Of a stretch of 46,864 bases of DNA, positions 3,107 through 29,714 are shown in pieces (position 1 is the first letter of the stretch; the number at the start of each line of letters is the position of its first letter). The stretch lies in IMG/VR virus record IMGVR_UViG_3300033153_005007, positions 1-46,864 of that record, one strand, 5' to 3'. A model generated the notes under the pieces. The model did no database searches and was not told where the DNA came from. It was given only the letters and a program-made list of their open reading frames with translations. A program made the translations under genes and the position numbers. Source of the stretch: a virus.

Positions 3107-3264
3107 CATTCACCTCTCTCGTCTTTTTGAATCTCACTGAGCAACTCTTGTGCTCCCCGTCTCCATGTGTCGATAACGGTAATCTCTTTATCATTTAACG
3201 CTGTTCTTAACTGGTTATCTTCTTCATTCAACGTTAAAGTTGTTTGATAGGTTGGGCTTGCCAT
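3106..3264 (-). CDS. Small hypothetical protein (52 aa)
   Basis: I start it at the ATG at 3264 (MASPTYQTTLTLNEED) because GAAAGGAG lies about 6 bases upstream. The frame is open to 3297 but that part has no ribosome site and overlaps the HTH gene deeply. The protein is short, acidic and probably partly helical (EEDNQLRTALNDKEIT). It overlaps the next gene by four bases. Function unknown. Confidence 0.6.
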   Translation of the reverse strand: MASPTYQTTLTLNEEDNQLRTALNDKEITVIDTWRRGAQELLSEIQKDERGE

Positions 3265-3430
3265 CTTGTTCTCCTTTCTCGAAATATTCCACAACATCAG
3301 AGAGACGGAATCTCAGGTATTTGCCGAATCTGATACACGGAATCTTTTGCATGCGGGTTCTTTGATACACCCAGCTTTTGTTAAGATTAAGTTTTTCACA
3401 TAGTTGTTCTATGGTTAGTAAATCATCCAT
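3224..3430 (-). CDS. Excisionase/AlpA-type helix-turn-helix DNA-binding protein
   Basis: A 68-aa protein. Residues 5-50 (LLTIEQLCEKLNLNKSWVYQRTRMQKIPCIRFGKYLRFRLSDV) are a textbook HTH_17/MerR-like winged helix as in excisionases and AlpA regulators: helix-turn-helix, then the IPxxRFGKxxRF wing. The family binds DNA to direct recombination or regulate transcription. No integrase is visible in the genome, so a regulatory job is more likely than excision. The ATG at 3430 follows GGGGGTGTG. Targets may include the early promoters or the repeats of the control region, which is inference. Confidence 0.9.
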   Translation of the reverse strand: MDDLLTIEQLCEKLNLNKSWVYQRTRMQKIPCIRFGKYLRFRLSDVVEYFEKGEQDGKPNLSNNFNVE

Positions 3431-6425: not shown

Positions 6426-6873
6426 GAACTATTTTACATCTCTTTTGCTTACGGGACTCAGGAAGACTGAAAAATTTTCCGCCCAGTGCTTCTGGAATTT
6501 TCAGCTTCCGTCCTGCCGAATTTTTGTCGTAAACCTAAAAGTACCACCATCTTGGGAGAAATCACACCACCAGCCTCACCTCCTTCCGTGTAAATCTCTC
6601 ATGACTTTGTATTAATAATTATTAATCAGAACTAATCTGAACTAATCAATATCAAAGAAAGATATCAGGTAACAACACCTGAATGATGACCTGTCGCATC
6701 CTGAAAAGTTAAGATATCCAGGAAAGATTAATTACGATTAATACCAATCAATCCGTATTAATACCGATTAATACAATCCAGGAAAAACCTAAAATAAGGA
6801 AGCCCGACATATCTCAAATAGCTTCCCTAATATCACCGACGATTCAGCTGTATTAATACCGACGATAAAACGC
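6426..6873. other. Gene-free control region between divergent promoters; candidate origin or operator cluster
   Basis: No convincing gene lies here. It holds a tandem AGAACTAATC/TGAACTAATC repeat (6626-6648), a hairpin TCAGGT-AACAAC-ACCTGA (6665-6682) and a cluster of [CG]RTTAATACC-type repeats (6725-6775) flanked by two TCCAGGAAA copies (near 6717 and 6777). Position between divergent promoters and the repeat density fit an origin or regulator-binding region. Nothing in the sequence proves replication initiation. Confidence 0.45.
6665..6682. promoter_or_regulatory. Inverted repeat, possible operator
   Basis: TCAGGT-AACAAC-ACCTGA is a perfect 6-bp dyad with a 6-base gap, followed by another CCTG half-site. 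The size suits a dimeric repressor half-site pair. No regulator can be assigned. Confidence 0.4.
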
Positions 6874-6902
6874 TTGACAGTATTAATACGATATGATACC
6901 AT
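6874..6902 (+). promoter_or_regulatory. Rightward promoter for the CobS/CobT-like module
   Basis: TTGACA (6874-6879), a 17-base spacer ending GATATGA and TACCAT (6897-6902). The -35 is perfect and the -10 weaker. The shared GATATGA ties it to the two leftward promoters. It would give a leader of nearly 480 bases before the first recognisable gene at 7380. Confidence 0.55.
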
Positions 6903-7379
6903 GTAGTCCGTAGTTCGTTCATTGACAATTTTTGGTAACACCGACCACCGACCGACGACGAGAGTCTCACTCCCGCCCGCTCGTTCCTCGACGGAGAATG
7001 TGGTTTGCCAGGTTAAGCCAAGAATGAAAATTGATTCAAGGTCGCTGTTCAAGTCGATTAATACTTGCATGGATATTGACGGAAGTCTCGTCGAGAGTCC
7101 ATGAACGCAATATGGAGCCAGAAGTCGACGACGTGCACAAATAACACCTTATGACCAGAATTGATTGACGCTGAATCACCCGACGACGAGGTACTAACCC
7201 CTCGACGTGCAGTTGATTAATGCGGTTTATTTGCTGTTTGACCGTCGACGATGTTAACAGAACAGCGGGTTTTTTGTGTTTCACCCAACGAGAACACTGG
7301 CACTTATGCCTCAAATAAAATCCTAATGCTTATGATTACCTCGACGGAGATTTACTATCCTGAAAGGAAAATTAATATC
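6903..7379. other. Long gene-free leader rich in CGACG/CGTCG words
   Basis: Several frames are open here but none has a good SD or protein-like composition. A 26-aa frame from 7024 is possible but weak. CGACG or CGTCG recurs about every 60 bases (for example near 6955, 6992, 7090, 7125, 7182, 7203, 7245), far above chance. Either a long regulated leader or a protein-binding array is conceivable. Confidence 0.5.
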
Positions 7380-8456
7380 ATGAAGAAAGTTACTGATATT
7401 CAAGTGTTAGATTGTATAGAGAAAAATGGCAATAATCCTGACATACTCTCGACGGAATTGGGCATTGCAAAATCAAATGTCTTTTATCGTCTACGCCAGT
7501 TAAAGTCAAAAGGTCGACTGAATACCGACGGAGAGATTATTAAAGTGTCTCAAAACACACTCACTGAAAGCGCTTTTCCTCATGACACCGACGGTGTCGA
7601 CGAGGTTATACCATGCAATGTGGACATGGAAAGCTTGAAGTGTCCTGTTGATTCAAATTATTTCCTACGCTCTATTGATAAAAAAATCGAAAAGTTGTCG
7701 TCGAGGAAGCGTAACGTTTGCTTAATCGGTGACGCTGGTTCTGGTAAAACGAAAATGGTCGAGCAGTTATCTTCTCGACTAGACATTCCATTTTTACGAA
7801 TCGCTTGCGATGACACGACTGTCCTAAAAGACATGTTAGGTCGTCGAGAGATTAAGAATGGTACAACGTATTTTCGTACTGGTTTATTATTTGAGGTCGT
7901 GCAGAAACCGAGCGTGATATTATTTGACGAGTTTAACAGTCAAAATAGTTCACGCTTGTTCTTTCTCCACGAGCTACTCGATAATCGTCGTCTCTTAATT
8001 AAAGACGCTGACGGTGGTCGAATAGTTAATCTCCACGAGGATTGCAAAATCTTTTTGGCGTGTAACTATAATTCCGCAAAGTACAGCGGAACAAATAAAA
8101 CCAACGTTGCGTTAGGTGACCGAACCTCCGTCGAGCATGTCGAACCTTTTGAGCCTGCAACGGTCAAAAAGGTTTTCGACACTGGCAACGATGACGCCAC
8201 GAAAAACCTCATGCGTTTTTACGTCGAGGTGAACAATACTATCCGCAATCAAAATTTGCGTATGGTATTTTCTTTGCGTGGCGTAACACGAATAGTTGAA
8301 GATTTGAAAGCAGGTGACAGCGTCAAGGAATCCTTGACCTCTAACCTTTTCAACCATTCGTTGTTAACCGCTCGTGAGGAAGATGGAAAAAGCCTCGTCG
8401 AGCTTGCTCGTGTTATATTCGGAGCAGAAAAATTCGATGAACCGATTAATCAATAG
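7380..8456 (+). CDS. MoxR/CobS-like AAA+ ATPase with N-terminal winged helix
   Basis: A 358-aa protein. Residues 1-60 form a winged helix-turn-helix (VLDCIEKNGNNPDILSTELG, then AKSNVFYRLRQLKSKGRL). The AAA+ core has Walker A GDAGSGKT at 117-124, Walker B LFDEFN at 181-186, a sensor-1 type FLACNYN strand and an arginine-containing FSLRGVTR helix. This is the MoxR/CobS branch, which works with VWA proteins (CobT/CoxE type) as chaperone-like or metal-insertion machines. The next genes encode exactly such a partner. The ATG at 7380 follows GAAAGGA and an ATTAATA spacer; the frame is open upstream without support. The N-terminal wHTH fusion is unusual for CobS. Phage substrates of such pairs are not known to me. 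Confidence 0.88.
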   Translation: MKKVTDIQVLDCIEKNGNNPDILSTELGIAKSNVFYRLRQLKSKGRLNTDGEIIKVSQNTLTESAFPHDTDGVDEVIPCNVDMESLKCPVDSNYFLRSIDKKIEKLSSRKRNVCLIGDAGSGKTKMVEQLSSRLDIPFLRIACDDTTVLKDMLGRREIKNGTTYFRTGLLFEVVQKPSVILFDEFNSQNSSRLFFLHELLDNRRLLIKDADGGRIVNLHEDCKIFLACNYNSAKYSGTNKTNVALGDRTSVEHVEPFEPATVKKVFDTGNDDATKNLMRFYVEVNNTIRNQNLRMVFSLRGVTRIVEDLKAGDSVKESLTSNLFNHSLLTAREEDGKSLVELARVIFGAEKFDEPINQ

Positions 8457-8467
8457 AGGGAGAGAAA

Positions 8468-9067
8468 ATGAATCACTTGAAAGTTGTTGCAAGGCACTTC
8501 TCCGACGACACAAAAACTCAAATTGTTTTTAAAGACAATGCGAGTCCGAGTACCGACGGAGAAAGAATAATACTCCCATCGCAAGTCAACCCCGACTACA
8601 CTGATAATGTTATCGGTTCTTTGCTCCACGAGACATCGCATATAAAATACACTACAATAAATGCTATGCAAGGATTAAGCAAGTCGTCAGCGACGTGCTT
8701 GAATGTCCTTGAGGATATACGAATCGACGAGAAAACACAAGTCGAATATCCGAATAGCAAGTATTTTTATCGAAAGCTCGTCGAGGAAGTTGTGACGACT
8801 AAACTCGACCAACTTAACAAAGAACCGATTCCAGTGCGGATATTAAAGTCGCTCATATTTACATCGCATGGATATAATCCTGCGGATATTTATGACAGCG
8901 ACATCGTCAACCGATTGCAAAAATATCTACCTTATGTGGATATCGCAAAGCAATCACCGAACACCGACGAGTTAATTCCTCATGCGGTTGAATTATCCAA
9001 GAAGTTATTTGGAGAGCTCGACCAGGACAGTGGAAAAAGCGGAGATGGAAAAGAGAACACCGACTGA
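8468..9067 (+). CDS. CobT-like protein, N-terminal metallopeptidase-like part (interrupted by TGA)
   Basis: 199 aa up to an in-frame TGA. HETSH at residues 54-58 is an HExxH zinc motif, followed by NVLEDIRIDE (79-88), where the Glu/Asp would supply the further ligand. This HExxH...ED.RI(D/E) pairing is typical of the N-terminal domain of CobT-like phage VWA proteins. The end is low-complexity (DQDSGKSGDGKENTD) and is cut by TGA at 9065-9067. The same frame continues as an acidic Gly/Gln/Asp-rich linker into the VWA domain. SD GGGAGAG precedes the ATG, 11 bases after the AAA+ gene. Likely one 654-aa protein ancestrally. Confidence 0.85.
   Translation: MNHLKVVARHFSDDTKTQIVFKDNASPSTDGERIILPSQVNPDYTDNVIGSLLHETSHIKYTTINAMQGLSKSSATCLNVLEDIRIDEKTQVEYPNSKYFYRKLVEEVVTTKLDQLNKEPIPVRILKSLIFTSHGYNPADIYDSDIVNRLQKYLPYVDIAKQSPNTDELIPHAVELSKKLFGELDQDSGKSGDGKENTD
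9065..9067 (+). other. In-frame TGA dividing the CobT-like gene
   Basis: Codon 200 of the frame opened at 8468 is TGA in the context CCGACTGAGAAA. Nearby the genome repeatedly has CCGACGGAGAA, so one G-to-T change (GGA Gly to TGA) explains it. The frame then stays open for 454 codons. TGA is an ordinary stop elsewhere (for example in ATGA overlaps at 783 and 4766), so genome-wide recoding is unlikely. It is a nonsense mutation, a sequencing or population variant, or a read-through site. Confidence 0.85.
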
Positions 9068-9304
9068 GAAAAGCAAGACAGTGACAGCCAAGGAACAAAA
9101 GGCGGTCAAGGTCAAGGCAATTCTCCCGACGGTGAAAAAGACGAGCAAGAAAATGCCGACGGAGACGACGGAGAAAATCAAGAAGATGGTTCTTCTGGAT
9201 TTGACACCGACGAATCCACCGACGAGGGAAAGCAAAGCGGTGATGGAAAGCCTGGAGATAGCAAGACACAAAAACCATCGGACATCCTCAAGGAAATCGA
9301 AAAA

Positions 9305-10432
9305 TTGGAAAAAGAACTTGACAAGTTGGATAACCTTGAGACGAGCAAAAAACAAGAATGGGTTAAACACTCCGAGGATGAAAACAAGGCTTACAAGAAC
9401 CGACGAGCTAATCGCAACAAGCGTGATAATTCTAACAATCCAGAGGATGAGGCAAAATATCAAAAGCTAGTCGACAAACATCAAGAGAAACAACAAAAAG
9501 CTTGCGATGGAGTAGCTGATTCTCGACGTGAGATTCAAGAATTAAGGAACGAACAAAGCGCTTGCCAGGATGAAAAGCAGAGATTAATCAATAAGTTGGA
9601 AACGGTAGAGCACGATGGTTTCTCTTTCTCCGACGACGCTGAGATAAGCGGTTTCAAAGCGCTTGACACTCAAAAGGTGAAAGCGCCATCGGAGTTAGTT
9701 ATCGAATCAACCCAAACCCTCGACGAGATTATAGCCGAAACGGTTATTGCCCGACGAGACCAAAAGTTTGAGGATGATAACGGAGCAAACTTGAACCCTC
9801 GACAGTATGGGAGCCTTTACACCGACGTTGACCAGTTGTTTCTCGACGAGGAACAGAAACAATACAAGACAAAAGTTGCACTTGTCCTGGATGTTTCGTC
9901 GTCGACAGGTCAAACATCGGATATAGGTTCTCGTGCTAATATCATCTACAACTTATCGAAAGTTATTGCAGAGGCAATTCTAAAAGCGGAGCAAAGCGGA
10001 GCGCCAGTCGAGTTTAAAATCTTTGGTTTTACTCGAGACATCGTCGAGCTTTGCAACAGTGAGAACTACAGCAAGGACAAATTATATACCAGTTTATGCG
10101 GTTTCAGGAATGAATATTCCGACGGTACAAATTTGGCTCAAGCTGTAAACATCGTAGCTGACAAGTTACGAGACGACGAGGACAGCGACAGCGACCTCGT
10201 TGCAATCGTTCTCACCGACGCTGAAGTTTGCGAATATGAGATTAAACGGCTTGCGAATGAAAGTTGTTCGCATAATGTCCGCTTTGGTTTCGTTGCAATA
10301 CATCCATCATATGACTCTACCGACGAGGAATTTGACTTTTTGTTTGGAGAAAATATCATTAATCGAGAAGATGATGAGAAAATCGCCATCGAAAAGTTGA
10401 CTAACATCATGTTAGGTCTCGACGAGGGTTAA
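9305..10432 (+). CDS. CobT-like protein, VWA-domain part
   Basis: The listed start is a TTG at 9305 preceded by AAGGA, but the same frame is open from 9068 directly after the TGA. The protein begins with a charged coiled coil (about 1-110, EKELDKLDNLETSKKQ and EIQELRNEQSACQDEKQRL). A von Willebrand A domain follows with a full MIDAS set: DVSSS in VALVLDVSSSTGQ, the Thr of SDGTNLAQA and the Asp of VLTDAEV. VWA/CobT proteins bind MoxR/CobS-type AAA+ rings. Whether this half is made alone by reinitiation or as one chain with the metallopeptidase part is open. Confidence 0.85.
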   Translation: MEKELDKLDNLETSKKQEWVKHSEDENKAYKNRRANRNKRDNSNNPEDEAKYQKLVDKHQEKQQKACDGVADSRREIQELRNEQSACQDEKQRLINKLETVEHDGFSFSDDAEISGFKALDTQKVKAPSELVIESTQTLDEIIAETVIARRDQKFEDDNGANLNPRQYGSLYTDVDQLFLDEEQKQYKTKVALVLDVSSSTGQTSDIGSRANIIYNLSKVIAEAILKAEQSGAPVEFKIFGFTRDIVELCNSENYSKDKLYTSLCGFRNEYSDGTNLAQAVNIVADKLRDDEDSDSDLVAIVLTDAEVCEYEIKRLANESCSHNVRFGFVAIHPSYDSTDEEFDFLFGENIINREDDEKIAIEKLTNIMLGLDEG

Positions 10433-10520
10433 ATACAATCTAACATCCTAAAACGTTGATATCGTCGACGGTGTATTAATACATCGTCGTCGGTATTAAT
10501 AAAAGAAAGTGAGCCAAATC

Positions 10521-10724
10521 ATGAGTTATGAACAAAAGTTGTTTGAGGTTTTCAAGCAGTTGTCTTTTTTACAGTTGGAAAAATTAAAATCTTTGCCAGT
10601 CGAGGAAATCGAAAAGTTGTATGACACCCGACCGTTCAAGGATGATGAACCCGACGAGGAAGTAAAGATTGACGGAGTTGATTTAAAGGGAGTTAAGAAC
10701 CGAATATCCGAACATTTAAACTAA
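10521..10724 (+). CDS. Small acidic protein after the CobT-like gene (67 aa)
   Basis: A 67-aa, acidic, helical protein (MSYEQKLFEVFKQLSFLQLEKL...). The ATG at 10521 follows AAAGTGAG; a GTG at 10509 in the same frame is less likely. It is the last gene before the strong terminator at 10779-10815, so it belongs to the AAA+/VWA operon and may be an adaptor or cofactor of that complex. Family not recognised. Confidence 0.65.
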   Translation: MSYEQKLFEVFKQLSFLQLEKLKSLPVEEIEKLYDTRPFKDDEPDEEVKIDGVDLKGVKNRISEHLN

Positions 10725-10778
10725 TAAACACCGACGAGAATTAATAAGCATTAGGATGTATTAATACCAAACAAAATC

Positions 10779-10815
10779 AAGGGAGCGACCGTCAAGGTTT
10801 GCTCCCTTTTTTTTT
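10779..10815 (+). terminator. Strong rho-independent terminator
   Basis: AAGGGAGC (10779-10786) pairs with GCTCCCTT (10801-10808) around a 14-base loop and runs into nine T residues. It closes the AAA+/VWA operon and separates it from the terminase genes. Confidence 0.9.
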
Positions 10816-11008
10816 ATGCCTAAAATCCGACGAGGATTAATATTTATTAATGCGTCTCCGCTCCGCTCCGACGAACAGCAGTCTATAAAGAGAAAAGCAA
10901 CCGCAAAAACAAAAGCTCTCCCGACAAGAACTAATCCTTATTAATATCAATCCATATCATACCGACGAGAAAAGAGATAAAAACATAACATAAACACGAA
11001 TAAAGTGA
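10816..11008. other. Intergenic stretch with CGACGAG and ATTAATA words
   Basis: No gene is visible. CCGACGAG recurs near 10827, 10872 and 10962 and ATTAAT-type words near 10833, 10845 and 10939, in keeping with the surrounding island. The segment leads into the terS promoter. Confidence 0.5.
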
Positions 11009-11014
11009 TATAAT
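11005..11014 (+). promoter_or_regulatory. Extended -10 promoter before terS
   Basis: GTGATATAAT contains a perfect TATAAT (11009-11014) preceded by TGA, the extended -10 signature that can replace a good -35; no convincing -35 is seen. It lies about 40 bases before the terS start. Confidence 0.55.
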
Positions 11015-11056
11015 ACCGACGAGTATTAATCAGTATTAAAAAGTTAGGAAAATGTT

Positions 11057-11596
11057 ATGAAAAAGATTAAACCAAAAGACATGAAGTTTGCAAGGGCATT
11101 GATAAAAACCAATGGACATCAGGGCAAAGCTTATAAGATTCTACACCCGACGGTAACCGACACCGTTGCACAAGCGAGCGCAAGTAGAATGCTCGCAAAC
11201 AAGCCAGAGATAAAACAGTTTGTCGTCGAGATAATGAACACAAAAGGATTAGACGTCGGCAACCTGGTCGGCAAGCTTAAGCGCCTGACCAGTGCCAAAA
11301 AAGATAACATTATGCCGAGCGGAGAGGTCGTCAAGACGGTCGATAACCCGACCAGGCTCCAGGCGGTAAAGACTGGACTGGAACTCCATGGAGCACTGAA
11401 AACAGCGACGAGTATTAATACTGACCGACGGAGTATTAATATTAATCTCGAGGGTAGAGGGAGCGAGGAACTTAAGTTACTGACTAGCAAGCTTGATGAT
11501 TTAAACAAAGCGCTTGCGCTCGACGATGGAATGCAAGACGGAGAGATAGTAGACGCTGACTTCTCGACGACCGACGACACTATTAGTTTGGATTAA
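11057..11596 (+). CDS. terS: Terminase small subunit
   Basis: A 179-aa protein. The N-terminal 55 residues (MKFARALIKTNGHQGKAYKILHP, then ASASRMLANKPEIKQF) match the HTH domain of small terminases that recognises packaging DNA. A helical oligomerisation region follows (ELKLLTSKLDDLNKAL) and an acidic tail (DGMQDGEIVDADFSTTDD). SD TTAGGA lies before the ATG. A repeat array follows at once and may be its binding site. Unusually, the large subunit lies 2.9 kb downstream behind an inserted gene cluster. Codons in the C-terminal third contain the CGACGG and GTATTAAT words of this region. Confidence 0.88.
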   Translation: MKKIKPKDMKFARALIKTNGHQGKAYKILHPTVTDTVAQASASRMLANKPEIKQFVVEIMNTKGLDVGNLVGKLKRLTSAKKDNIMPSGEVVKTVDNPTRLQAVKTGLELHGALKTATSINTDRRSININLEGRGSEELKLLTSKLDDLNKALALDDGMQDGEIVDADFSTTDDTISLD

Positions 11597-11770
11597 TACG
11601 GATTAATACACAGCGACGGACAGCGTCGAGGTTCTCGTCGGCTCGTCGGACAGCATGAGCCAAGGCGTGCTTGAGTTGTGACCTCGTCGACCGTCGAGCC
11701 TCGAGTATTAATACGGATTAATACTGTGTTCTCGTCGACCGACGCTGTGCTGTATTAATACGCATTAATC
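11590..11770. repeat. Repeat array of GTATTAATACGGATTAATAC type after terS; possible pac site
   Basis: Three related units lie at about 11592-11611, 11704-11723 and 11752-11769, each with two ATTAAT boxes spaced alike. GTATTAATAC is itself a 10-bp palindrome. Between them lie many CGTCG/CGACG words. An array next to terS fits a packaging-initiation site, but that is inference. Confidence 0.55.
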
Positions 11771-11994
11771 GTGCCGATATCTTGGGAAACATGTGGTCGA
11801 AATCATGCGGGAATCGGGGTACCCCCCCCACCCGTCCAGGTTCAAGCTACCACTCCTATTTTTCCGAAATTTTTCCCAAAATCCCCCTCCGTCGACATTT
11901 TTCTCAGAAATATTTCTCAAGATTTAAGTTGCGTCTTCGCTTCCCCTATGTTACCATGCCTCTATCAGTTGAAACCCTAACCGAAGGAGCCGCA
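11771..11994. other. Gene-free stretch before the inserted cluster
   Basis: Open frames here lack ribosome sites. It holds a run of eight C residues (about 11822-11829), AT-rich ATTTTTCC/ATTTTTCT repeats (11859-11915) and a possible promoter (TTGCGT near 11930, 17 bases, TACCAT near 11953) for the gene at 11995. Nothing else seen. Confidence 0.45.
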
Positions 11995-12231
11995 ATGAAA
12001 GAGTTTTCCCGCACCATCGTTGAGAATCTTGACACATTCCGCAACGCCGAATCCTACCAAAAGAAAGTCCCGACGCTGGCAGTCCGAATCGAGGGTCCCT
12101 TCAAGGTTCACACCTCCGAGGGTATTATGACCTGCGAAGATGGGTACCTCTGTCGTGATGCACGAGGGTATCCATACCCAATAGCGAAAGATGAGTTCGA
12201 TTTAATTTACCGACCCAACACCGAGGACTAA
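11995..12231 (+). CDS. Small phage protein (78 aa), PGDY-like fold suspected
   Basis: The ATG at 11995 follows GAAGGAG; the open frame upstream has no support. The sequence (GPFKVHTSEGIMTCEDGYLCRDARGYPYPIAKDEFDLIY) resembles a small beta-rich domain widespread in phages, in which a tEG..tv..GDyl.rd..GE.ypi..e.F motif precedes a terminal YR. Function of that domain is unknown to me. First gene of the insert between terS and terL. Confidence 0.65.
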   Translation: MKEFSRTIVENLDTFRNAESYQKKVPTLAVRIEGPFKVHTSEGIMTCEDGYLCRDARGYPYPIAKDEFDLIYRPNTED

Positions 12232-12233
12232 TC

Positions 12234-12410
12234 ATGCCGATTAAATTTGAAGAAGAACATTTCACCGTCGAGGATGTTGCCGTGGCGAGGGGTATCACCG
12301 TGCAGGCTGTCCGCAAGGCTATCTCCGAATGTCGACTATCCGCAAAGAAGATTGCAGGCTCTTGGTTCATTTCTCGTCGAGAACTGGAAGAAAGGAAGTG
12401 GTTGAGATGA
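12234..12410 (+). CDS. Helix-turn-helix protein, excisionase-type (58 aa)
   Basis: A 58-aa ORF. HFTVEDVAVARGITVQAVRKAISECRL is a clean helix-turn-helix, and KKIAGSWFISRRELEER forms the wing and last helix of the HTH_17 family. It lies two bases after the preceding stop and overlaps the next ATG (ATGA). It probably regulates its own cluster, for example through the 20-base repeats at 12755, 12919 and 13169. That target is inference. Confidence 0.85.
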   Translation: MPIKFEEEHFTVEDVAVARGITVQAVRKAISECRLSAKKIAGSWFISRRELEERKWLR

Positions 12411-12712
12411 GTATGTATCCAGGGACGGGGGAGCACTGCAACACCTGCGGGAAGATATATTTTTATATCGGAGATATCCCGACGGGGGGATTCCCAGCAG
12501 GTCAAGAGCCATGGTGCACATGCACAAAGACTATTGTGCCAGAGCCAGCAACAACGACAGACCCAAATGCAGATTTCGTCTACACGGAGCCAGGGATACT
12601 GTTCGCCTCCTGGTGCGCCATCTGCTATCCAGAGGAGAAAGTCGGAGCATCGTTCATCTACGATGGAGTGGGGATGTGCGAGGATTGCTTCAAAAACATC
12701 CAGAGGGGATAG
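12407..12712 (+). CDS. Zinc-finger-like protein (101 aa)
   Basis: The ATG at 12407 overlaps the previous stop (ATGA) and has AAGGAAG 7 bases upstream. Four cysteine pairs (CNTC, CTC, CAIC, CEDC) suggest two zinc sites. The middle is proline/threonine-rich. The CNTCG...CAICYPEE...CEDCF pattern resembles zinc-ribbon adaptor proteins, but no function can be assigned. Confidence 0.75.
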   Translation: MSMYPGTGEHCNTCGKIYFYIGDIPTGGFPAGQEPWCTCTKTIVPEPATTTDPNADFVYTEPGILFASWCAICYPEEKVGASFIYDGVGMCEDCFKNIQRG

Positions 12713-12754
12713 CGACGGGTACACCGTCGGGGGAGACAGTTAGAGATTGATGGA

Positions 12755-27924: not shown

Positions 27925-29714
27925 CTGTATTAATAATTATTAGTAGCCTGTGGTGTGGGCTTGCTCATGCTGCGGCACTAAGAACTTTAGATAGTGGTGC
28001 GTTTGTATCGTACTGTAAGCAATATGACTTTGCTGGTTCAGTAGTAACGAATACTGGAATGAACTGCACTGTCACTGAGAGTGGAGGTGCGTCAGCTCCA
28101 GCTGATGCTACTTTCATTACTCAAACCATTAATGGAACGCTCACCAATGAGCAAGCGATGTCCGCTCTTGCGAGCGGATTAGTTTATAACACAACAGCAA
28201 CAGGCGTCCAATCCATAGCGACAGCTGGGGTTGATTACATTATCCCTGCTGGAAACGTCGCTACAGCAACAGCACTCGCAGCGGACCCTTCTGATTGTGG
28301 AGCTAACGTCTTTGCTACGTCTATTGATGCTGGTGCAAATCTCACCTGTTCGGCAATCGTCGACGCTGATGTCCCCGATAATATAACGGTTGATTTGGCA
28401 GCGGCAGCAACCGCTTTAGCCGCTAATCCTACTGACTGTGCAGTTAATAACTATGCTACAGCGATTGATGCGAGTGGCAATCTTACCTGTTCAGTTCCCT
28501 CTGGCTTTGATTCAACCGCAGTCGATGATACCACATGGAGCGATGGTGCTAATGCTTCTAACATCTGGACATTCGATGTATCTGGAACAGACCATACGAT
28601 GACAATGGGCGACGATTCTGTTGCTTTCAGTGGTGCTCTCACCGCAGCAAACTTCTCTGGAACAAACACGGGAGACCAATCCTCCATAGTCGGCATAACT
28701 GGAACAACAGCTGAGTTCAATACAGCTCTCTCTGATGGTAGCTTTGCTACTGGAGGAGGAACAGCGACTGGAGCAAATACTGGAGACCAATCATCTATTG
28801 TAGGGATATCTGGGACTACGGCAGAATTTAACACGGCTCTTTCCGACGGAAGTTTTGCGACTGGTGGTGGTACTGCAACAGGAAGCAACACTGGGGACCA
28901 GATAAATATAACTGGAAATGCAGCTACTGTTACCACTAATGCCAATCTCACTGGTGGAGTAACGAGCGTAGGAAATGCAGCGACAGTTATAACTAATGCT
29001 AACCTTACGGGTGTTGTTACGTCGGTCGGTAACGCTACGGCTATAGCTGACAAGGCACTGGCTATTGCCAAACTTGCTGATGGTACCGACGGACAGTTGA
29101 TTACTTGGGATGCGGCAGGAGTTATTGCTACGGTGGCAACAGGAACGGATACTCAAGTTCTTACATCTAACGGAGCAGATACTGCTCCTACTTTTCAAGA
29201 CCCAGCAGGAGGCGGTGCTTATACTTTAGTCTCTGCAACAGCGTTCAGTGCAGCAACGACTACGGGAGATATTTCTGTAGACGTTAGTAAGATATATCTT
29301 ATTACATTTGACATGACTACGGATGCTCAGACAGCTAATGCTGTTACATTCAGATGTAATAATGATGCCACTTCCTACGGATATGTCGTTCGTGGGTATG
29401 CTCATATCACTGGTGACATAACAACATCAGGAGTAGGTGCAGCCTCTATACCTTTGGGGACGATAGATAACTCTGACTGGTACAGAAGCATGAGAGGGCA
29501 ACTCTATTTATATACGAGAGATATAGACCTCGCTGTTGATATAGCAGCGACCCTAGATGGTACATTCGGTTATCATAATACTTCTAATGGTGGTCAAGCT
29601 AGTTGCACTGTATCAGCACACTATGAGAGTAATACAGCAATATCAAGTTTTGAGTTTAATATGGGTGTAGCCTCTACGGGCACAGTATACCTATATGAAT
29701 TAACACTATCTTAG
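27894..29714 (+). CDS. Large fibre-like protein with N-terminal signal peptide and repeats
   Basis: A 606-aa protein. The N-terminus (MGIRSTRNRLAVLIIISSLW, then CGLAHAAAL) is a classical secretion signal with an AHA-A cleavage site. The start is supported by GGAGGT 8 bases upstream. The body is Ala/Thr/Asp-rich with tandem 37-residue repeats starting NTGDQSSIVG (28665-28775 and 28776-28886, then a partial copy) and NAATVTTNANLTG-type repeats, which recur in phage and bacterial fibre stalks. The C-terminal 150 residues form a separate beta domain. A signal peptide is strange for a virion fibre; it may be a secreted or surface protein made during infection. Confidence 0.75.
   Translation: MGIRSTRNRLAVLIIISSLWCGLAHAAALRTLDSGAFVSYCKQYDFAGSVVTNTGMNCTVTESGGASAPADATFITQTINGTLTNEQAMSALASGLVYNTTATGVQSIATAGVDYIIPAGNVATATALAADPSDCGANVFATSIDAGANLTCSAIVDADVPDNITVDLAAAATALAANPTDCAVNNYATAIDASGNLTCSVPSGFDSTAVDDTTWSDGANASNIWTFDVSGTDHTMTMGDDSVAFSGALTAANFSGTNTGDQSSIVGITGTTAEFNTALSDGSFATGGGTATGANTGDQSSIVGISGTTAEFNTALSDGSFATGGGTATGSNTGDQINITGNAATVTTNANLTGGVTSVGNAATVITNANLTGVVTSVGNATAIADKALAIAKLADGTDGQLITWDAAGVIATVATGTDTQVLTSNGADTAPTFQDPAGGGAYTLVSATAFSAATTTGDISVDVSKIYLITFDMTTDAQTANAVTFRCNNDATSYGYVVRGYAHITGDITTSGVGAASIPLGTIDNSDWYRSMRGQLYLYTRDIDLAVDIAATLDGTFGYHNTSNGGQASCTVSAHYESNTAISSFEFNMGVASTGTVYLYELTLS
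28665..28886 (+). repeat. Two tandem 111-bp coding repeats (37 aa each)
   Basis: The two copies encode 37 residues that differ at only two positions (Thr/Ser and the Ala/Ser end residue), yet most codons differ synonymously between copies. Confidence 0.8.

Follow-up and report, generated by a model that had tools for sequence, protein, structure and literature searches.

A palindromic CGWCG word concentrated in one module of a phage genome

The window analysed here is a whole virus record (IMG/VR IMGVR_UViG_3300033153_005007) of 46,864 bases, one stretch of which is strikingly rich in CGACG and CGTCG, counted together herein as CGWCG. A first-pass annotation of the sequence had noticed these words in coding and non-coding DNA, and had taken them to imply either a function at the level of DNA or a foreign origin. 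The question raised by this locus is what keeps so short a word so frequent, and why it peaks where it does.

Location and gene content of the island

Minus-strand genes, including those for a Sak4-like recombinase and a Cas4-like nuclease, fill approximately the first 6.3 kb of the genome, and are followed on the plus strand by genes for an AAA ATPase, a VWA protein, a small ORF, the small terminase subunit (terS), a RepA-like AAA protein, the large terminase subunit (terL), and capsid and tail proteins. The word island (6600–11770) holds 76 CGWCG from position 6850 and 31 ATTAAT from position 6600, with a CpG observed/expected ratio (rho CG) of 1.49 against 0.72 elsewhere. It takes in a CGWCG-rich non-coding leader (6850–7379; 25 per kb when counted over 6820–7379) and an intergenic block (11597–11770) in which CGWCG reaches 46 per kb alongside five ATTAAT. 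A shoulder at 11771–12750 contains 7 CGWCG in its 980 bp, and beyond 13 kb the density is down to about 2 per kb.

The first island gene (7380–8456, plus strand, within an ORF open from 7251) encodes a MoxR/CobS-like AAA ATPase (AAA_5, 5.5e-19; phrog_249, 8.5e-32). The CobS model itself scores far below its cut-off, indicating distant similarity only, and the N-terminus is winged-helix-like at a level below the model's cut-off (HTH_24, 0.0018). The adjacent VWA-domain frame (8468–10432, plus strand), whose N-terminal part bears a weak likeness to a phage peptidase family, is split by an in-frame TGA at 9065–9067 that sits in sequence similar to the island word. This stop may reflect a pair of genes, a gene that is disrupted or an error in base calling; a recoded TGA was rejected, as nine other genes end in TGA. 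This arrangement resembles known MoxR AAA and VWA pairs (RavA–ViaA, PMC3893208; CobS-type phrog_249) in placing an AAA_5 ATPase next to a VWA protein, and differs from them in that the similarity is distant, the ATPase carries the winged-helix-like segment and the VWA frame is interrupted by a stop.

Further downstream lie a small acidic ORF of no family (10521–10724, plus strand) and terS (11057–11596, plus strand), whose variable C-terminal part has the gene's highest word density, 24 per kb. Between these two genes, a hairpin (GGGAGCGACC...GGTTTGCTCCC) and the T run after it appear terminator-like; this region (10725–11010) folds better than shuffles (z −3.4), whilst the other non-coding parts tested do not. 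No known RNA families or tRNAs were found. Amongst the window proteins scanned there is no methyltransferase, and small proteins of HTH_17 type occur only at 3224–3430 and 12234–12410. Island genes also have weaker upstream ribosome-binding motifs: the late genes' strong motif, AGGAG, does not occur on either strand of 6850–11770 (19.5 expected). TTGCAA is 11-fold enriched over the same interval, which has 8 copies to the 6 of the remaining genome. Of about 1300 island codons, a single one specifies Trp. Elsewhere, a late gene contains a 111-bp tandem repeat of 2.2 copies (28659–28900).

Two palindromic words and their excess

From the rate in the other 41.9 kb, which holds 91 CGWCG, only 10.7 would be predicted between 6850 and 11770, where 76 are observed (Poisson p ~2e-38), confirming the island as initially described. 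Its extent to about 11770 was likewise borne out, with the addition of the shoulder. For 6841–7620 the excess stands, but the figure of about 13 sites given for it does not, a recount yielding 17. Sites do occur in non-coding DNA, and at a higher density (28.8 per kb) than in coding DNA (12.0 per kb). Markov models, a kind of test that the annotation had suggested for the whole genome, predict, when built from the island itself, 15.9 (order 1) or 23.7 (order 2) CGWCG, placing the observed count beyond base composition; for non-coding island DNA the corresponding values are 4.7 and 8.1, against 30 observed. Within the island genes, shuffling of synonymous codons leaves 19.3 ± 3.5 CGWCG where 47 are observed, and tighter coding controls leave 23–29 against 46. 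This excess extends over both strands and all three codon phases, in agreement with the earlier reading. No helical phasing of CGWCG was detected. Neither outcome that was to count against the island, namely no excess over composition and codon use or an even density across the genome, was obtained.

The central base of CGNCG in the island is A or T without exception (CGWCG:CGSCG = 76:0), and the flanks conform to YCGWCGR at 56 of 76 sites inside the island (31 % expected; p 3e-14) and at 47 of 91 outside it (29 % expected; p 4e-6). Because the centre is always W in the island, and Y and R flanks are in excess both in and outside it, the unit is a 7-bp palindrome, YCGWCGR. The form first proposed, YCGACGRG or YCGACGGA, had not captured this symmetry of the flanks.

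A second palindrome, GTATTAATAC (half-form ATTAATAC), which had gone unmentioned, is enriched about 12-fold in the island, mostly between genes and in promoter regions. Relative to expectation from the island's own trinucleotides, ATTAATAC is 90-fold over-represented, and CGACG 3-fold. An array of ATTAATAC words at 6726–6774 keeps a register of about 10 bp with the unit GATTAATACC, GTATTAATAC/ATTAATAC words again adopt this register at 11590–11609, and two tandem units of ~20 bp at 10461–10501 carry both words (ATCGTCGACGGTATTAATAC). The best promoter-like site, TTGACA-17-TACCAT with an extended TG (6874–6902, plus strand), holds GTATTAATAC in its spacer and has CGACG just upstream, and another (ATAACA-18-TATAAT; 10985–11014, plus strand) is directly followed by ACCGACGAGTATTAAT. 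Both are consensus matches only, of a kind whose number does not exceed that in shuffles.

With regard to the rest of the genome, the strictest coding shuffle, which fixes protein, codon usage, codon-boundary dinucleotides and avoided sites, was used to rank 512 pentamers. CGACG ranks second in the island (46 observed against 29) and first in the late (head and tail) genes (52 against 29), with 4 against 3.2 in the early genes, where power is low. In seven control phage records, terminase relatives included, it ranks between 215 and 489, displaying no preference. Residuals of 5-mers in the island similarly correlate with those of the window's late genes (0.15–0.17), against −0.03 to 0.06 for the controls, and a residual CGACG/CCGAC preference is common to the island and the rest of the genome. 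Since the preference persists in late genes and is absent from controls, it acts at the DNA level in much of the phage, and is not confined to the island. The drop in the head genes noted in the first-pass annotation is therefore one of raw density, the relative excess there being about equal; it is the raw density that peaks in one module, whilst a residual excess is found in late genes and none in early genes at the power available. The striking density of the island is this preference combined with a CpG- and CGA-rich composition, such that part of it follows from a composition that could have another cause.

Composition, site avoidance and relatives

The composition of the island differs from that of the remaining genome: its windows display dinucleotide distances of 154–211, as compared with 41–112 elsewhere, and CGA makes up 38 % of its Arg codons, against 7 %. 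What the two share is an entire lack of certain sites. GATC, CCGG, CGCG and GGCC never occur in the genome (about 195, 73, 57 and 62 expected, about 390 in total), nor in the island, where about 42 would be expected; CTCTTC (31.8 expected), GCCCC (17.6 expected), GAATTC, CTGCAG and ATCGAT are also absent genome-wide. Strict avoidance is usual in phages under restriction, from which a loss of restriction targets is anticipated; the absences recorded here are an extreme case thereof. As the island has the same total lack of these four, an unrelated donor is unlikely.

Four relatives identified through terL at 50–62 % identity (L044, L078, L079/G001 and L080) contain no such island in the DNA compared. 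In three of them a terS orthologue lies beside terL, and the identity of the window's terS to those of its relatives (28–32 %) is in line with values among the relatives themselves; such identities do not mark this terS as foreign, in a sample too small to prove vertical descent. The AAA protein found no match in five terminase-relative records searched, terS and VWA queries matched no virus contigs, and no DNA similarity to public phages was seen. Pattern searches (ATTAATACCGACGAG; ATTAATAC..CGACG..ATTAATAC) of virus contigs and of bacterial and archaeal genomes gave one or two matches each, and no dense word pair. The densest low-GC match, a Clostridiales MAG (L064), was rejected as a donor, its signature being rich in CGCG and GATC. 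A haloarchaeal origin, hinted at by acidic TDE/LDE words, was also rejected, as acidity is not uniform among the island's proteins and GC lies at 41–46 %. Of the two causes originally offered, a DNA-level one is thus upheld by the non-coding excess and by the survival of the excess in coding shuffles, irrespective of strand and codon phase, whilst origin in an unrelated genome is not supported in view of the shared site avoidance, the residual preference and the syntenic terS.

Two other records deserve mention. A distant terL relative (26 %; G005, comprising L088, L089 and L082) lacks GATC, CCGG and CGCG in 47.5 kb, possesses 25 GGCC, and displays no CGWCG excess. A GGAAC island in another phage (L046:10001–14963; about 50 GGAAC per kb) was rejected as a parallel, being the gene of a collagen-like repeat protein built from arrays of a 9-bp unit; the locus is without GATC, CCGG and CATG.

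Candidate explanations and meaning

The reading tentatively preferred, whilst short of being probable in its own right, is that YCGWCGR is a palindrome kept frequent in this phage lineage by a DNA-level cause, its copies serving as sites for a symmetric DNA protein and lying most densely in one module. A pressure acting on DNA would keep CGWCG mildly frequent in the late genes, and extremely so in the divergent control region, the AAA–VWA pair and terS. The words would then be read by a dimeric or palindrome-recognising protein of phage or host, which may be a methyltransferase, as proposed for the highly iterated palindromes (HIPs) of cyanobacteria, or a regulator or nucleoid-like protein that coats the module; dense sites would mark or control that module. 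Speaking against this reading are the lack of a methyltransferase among the window proteins scanned, the early genes without a CGACG excess (at low power), the relatives whose compared DNA lacks the words, and the share of the density that composition explains. A more specific proposal, which is unlikely, has the coding and non-coding DNA of the module rewritten in palindromic words for a methyltransferase or coating protein of host or phage, so that modification or binding sites would densely cover the control region, the AAA–VWA machine and terS; with its peak in a single module, this would be the phage equivalent of cyanobacterial HIPs.

The main rival, which is somewhat unlikely, holds that a different phage or element sharing the host supplied the AAA–VWA–terS segment in an exchange, the segment retaining that donor's signature (high CpG, CGA codons and operators of its own) and the words having no special role. 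Such a replacement is compatible with the location of the peak and could explain the sharp change in composition, and the dinucleotide distances, the shifted codon use and the lack of an AAA match in the five relatives' records searched all speak for it. It does not account for words that exceed the island's own trinucleotide expectation, nor for the residual CGACG preference shared by the late genes, and no genome or virus contig searched has the word pair at such a density. A mere by-product of restriction-site avoidance and of codon use favouring GAC, CGA and CpG-rich triplets explains part of the density through the shifted codon use, but is scarcely credible as a full account and already largely refuted, as the excess outlasts the strictest shuffle and is stronger between genes. 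A packaging or recombination signal, be it a large TerS recognition region or, close to where packaging begins, a zone of Chi-like protection, would suit the position of a word-dense terS inside the island, pac sites commonly lying near this gene. It is very improbable for an island that covers 5 kb including unrelated genes, given that four terminase relatives lack the words and that the late genes prefer CGACG too.

Binding of a phage repressor to the words across the module, blocking transcription in the manner of mycobacteriophage L5-type repressors, is distinctly improbable. The positions of both words at the promoter-like sites and the arrays in a register of about 10 bp are consistent with such a role. 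Cluster A stoperators likewise form many copies of a short word within one phage genome, L5-type examples being scattered genome-wide with some at promoters and most not (PMC6550527), much as GTATTAATAC overlaps a promoter-like site here. They are, however, asymmetric 13-bp sites, mostly in one orientation, at about 30 per genome (PMC6550527, PMC9283540), whereas the island words are palindromic, CGWCG is in excess on both strands, and 76 sites occupy 5 kb. A site of 5–7 bp would also be poorly specific, and no repressor for the words was identified among the window proteins scanned.

Returning to the preferred reading of a palindrome maintained at the DNA level, the closest known kind is the HIP, a short palindromic word far above expectation, as CGWCG is here. 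Alternate HIPs of cyanobacteria include the 5-bp palindrome GCSGC, whose centre is degenerate, and a cognate methyltransferase accompanies such a word where it is frequent; the densities reported are about 500–2500 per Mb (PMC4390886). HIP1 and these alternates share with the island the gross over-representation of short palindromic words; the present case differs in belonging to a phage, in involving two words that peak in one 5-kb module at about 15,400 per Mb, and in the lack of a methyltransferase among the window proteins scanned. CGWCG and ATTAAT are identical to the recognition words of M.Hpy99I and M.Hpy99XIX, respectively, in Helicobacter pylori J99, whose methyltransferase targets also include TCGA (PMC3936762). 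As both are methylated in that organism, modification enzymes could plausibly act on the two words of the island. Against the usual loss of restriction targets by phages, seen here in the complete disappearance of four 4-base palindromes, stands the gain of two that are known elsewhere as methyltransferase targets. The origin and role of highly iterated palindromes have been in question since HIP1 was described; should a modification enzyme or binding protein read the words of this island, the phage would offer a small, testable system for how such palindromes arise and what they do.
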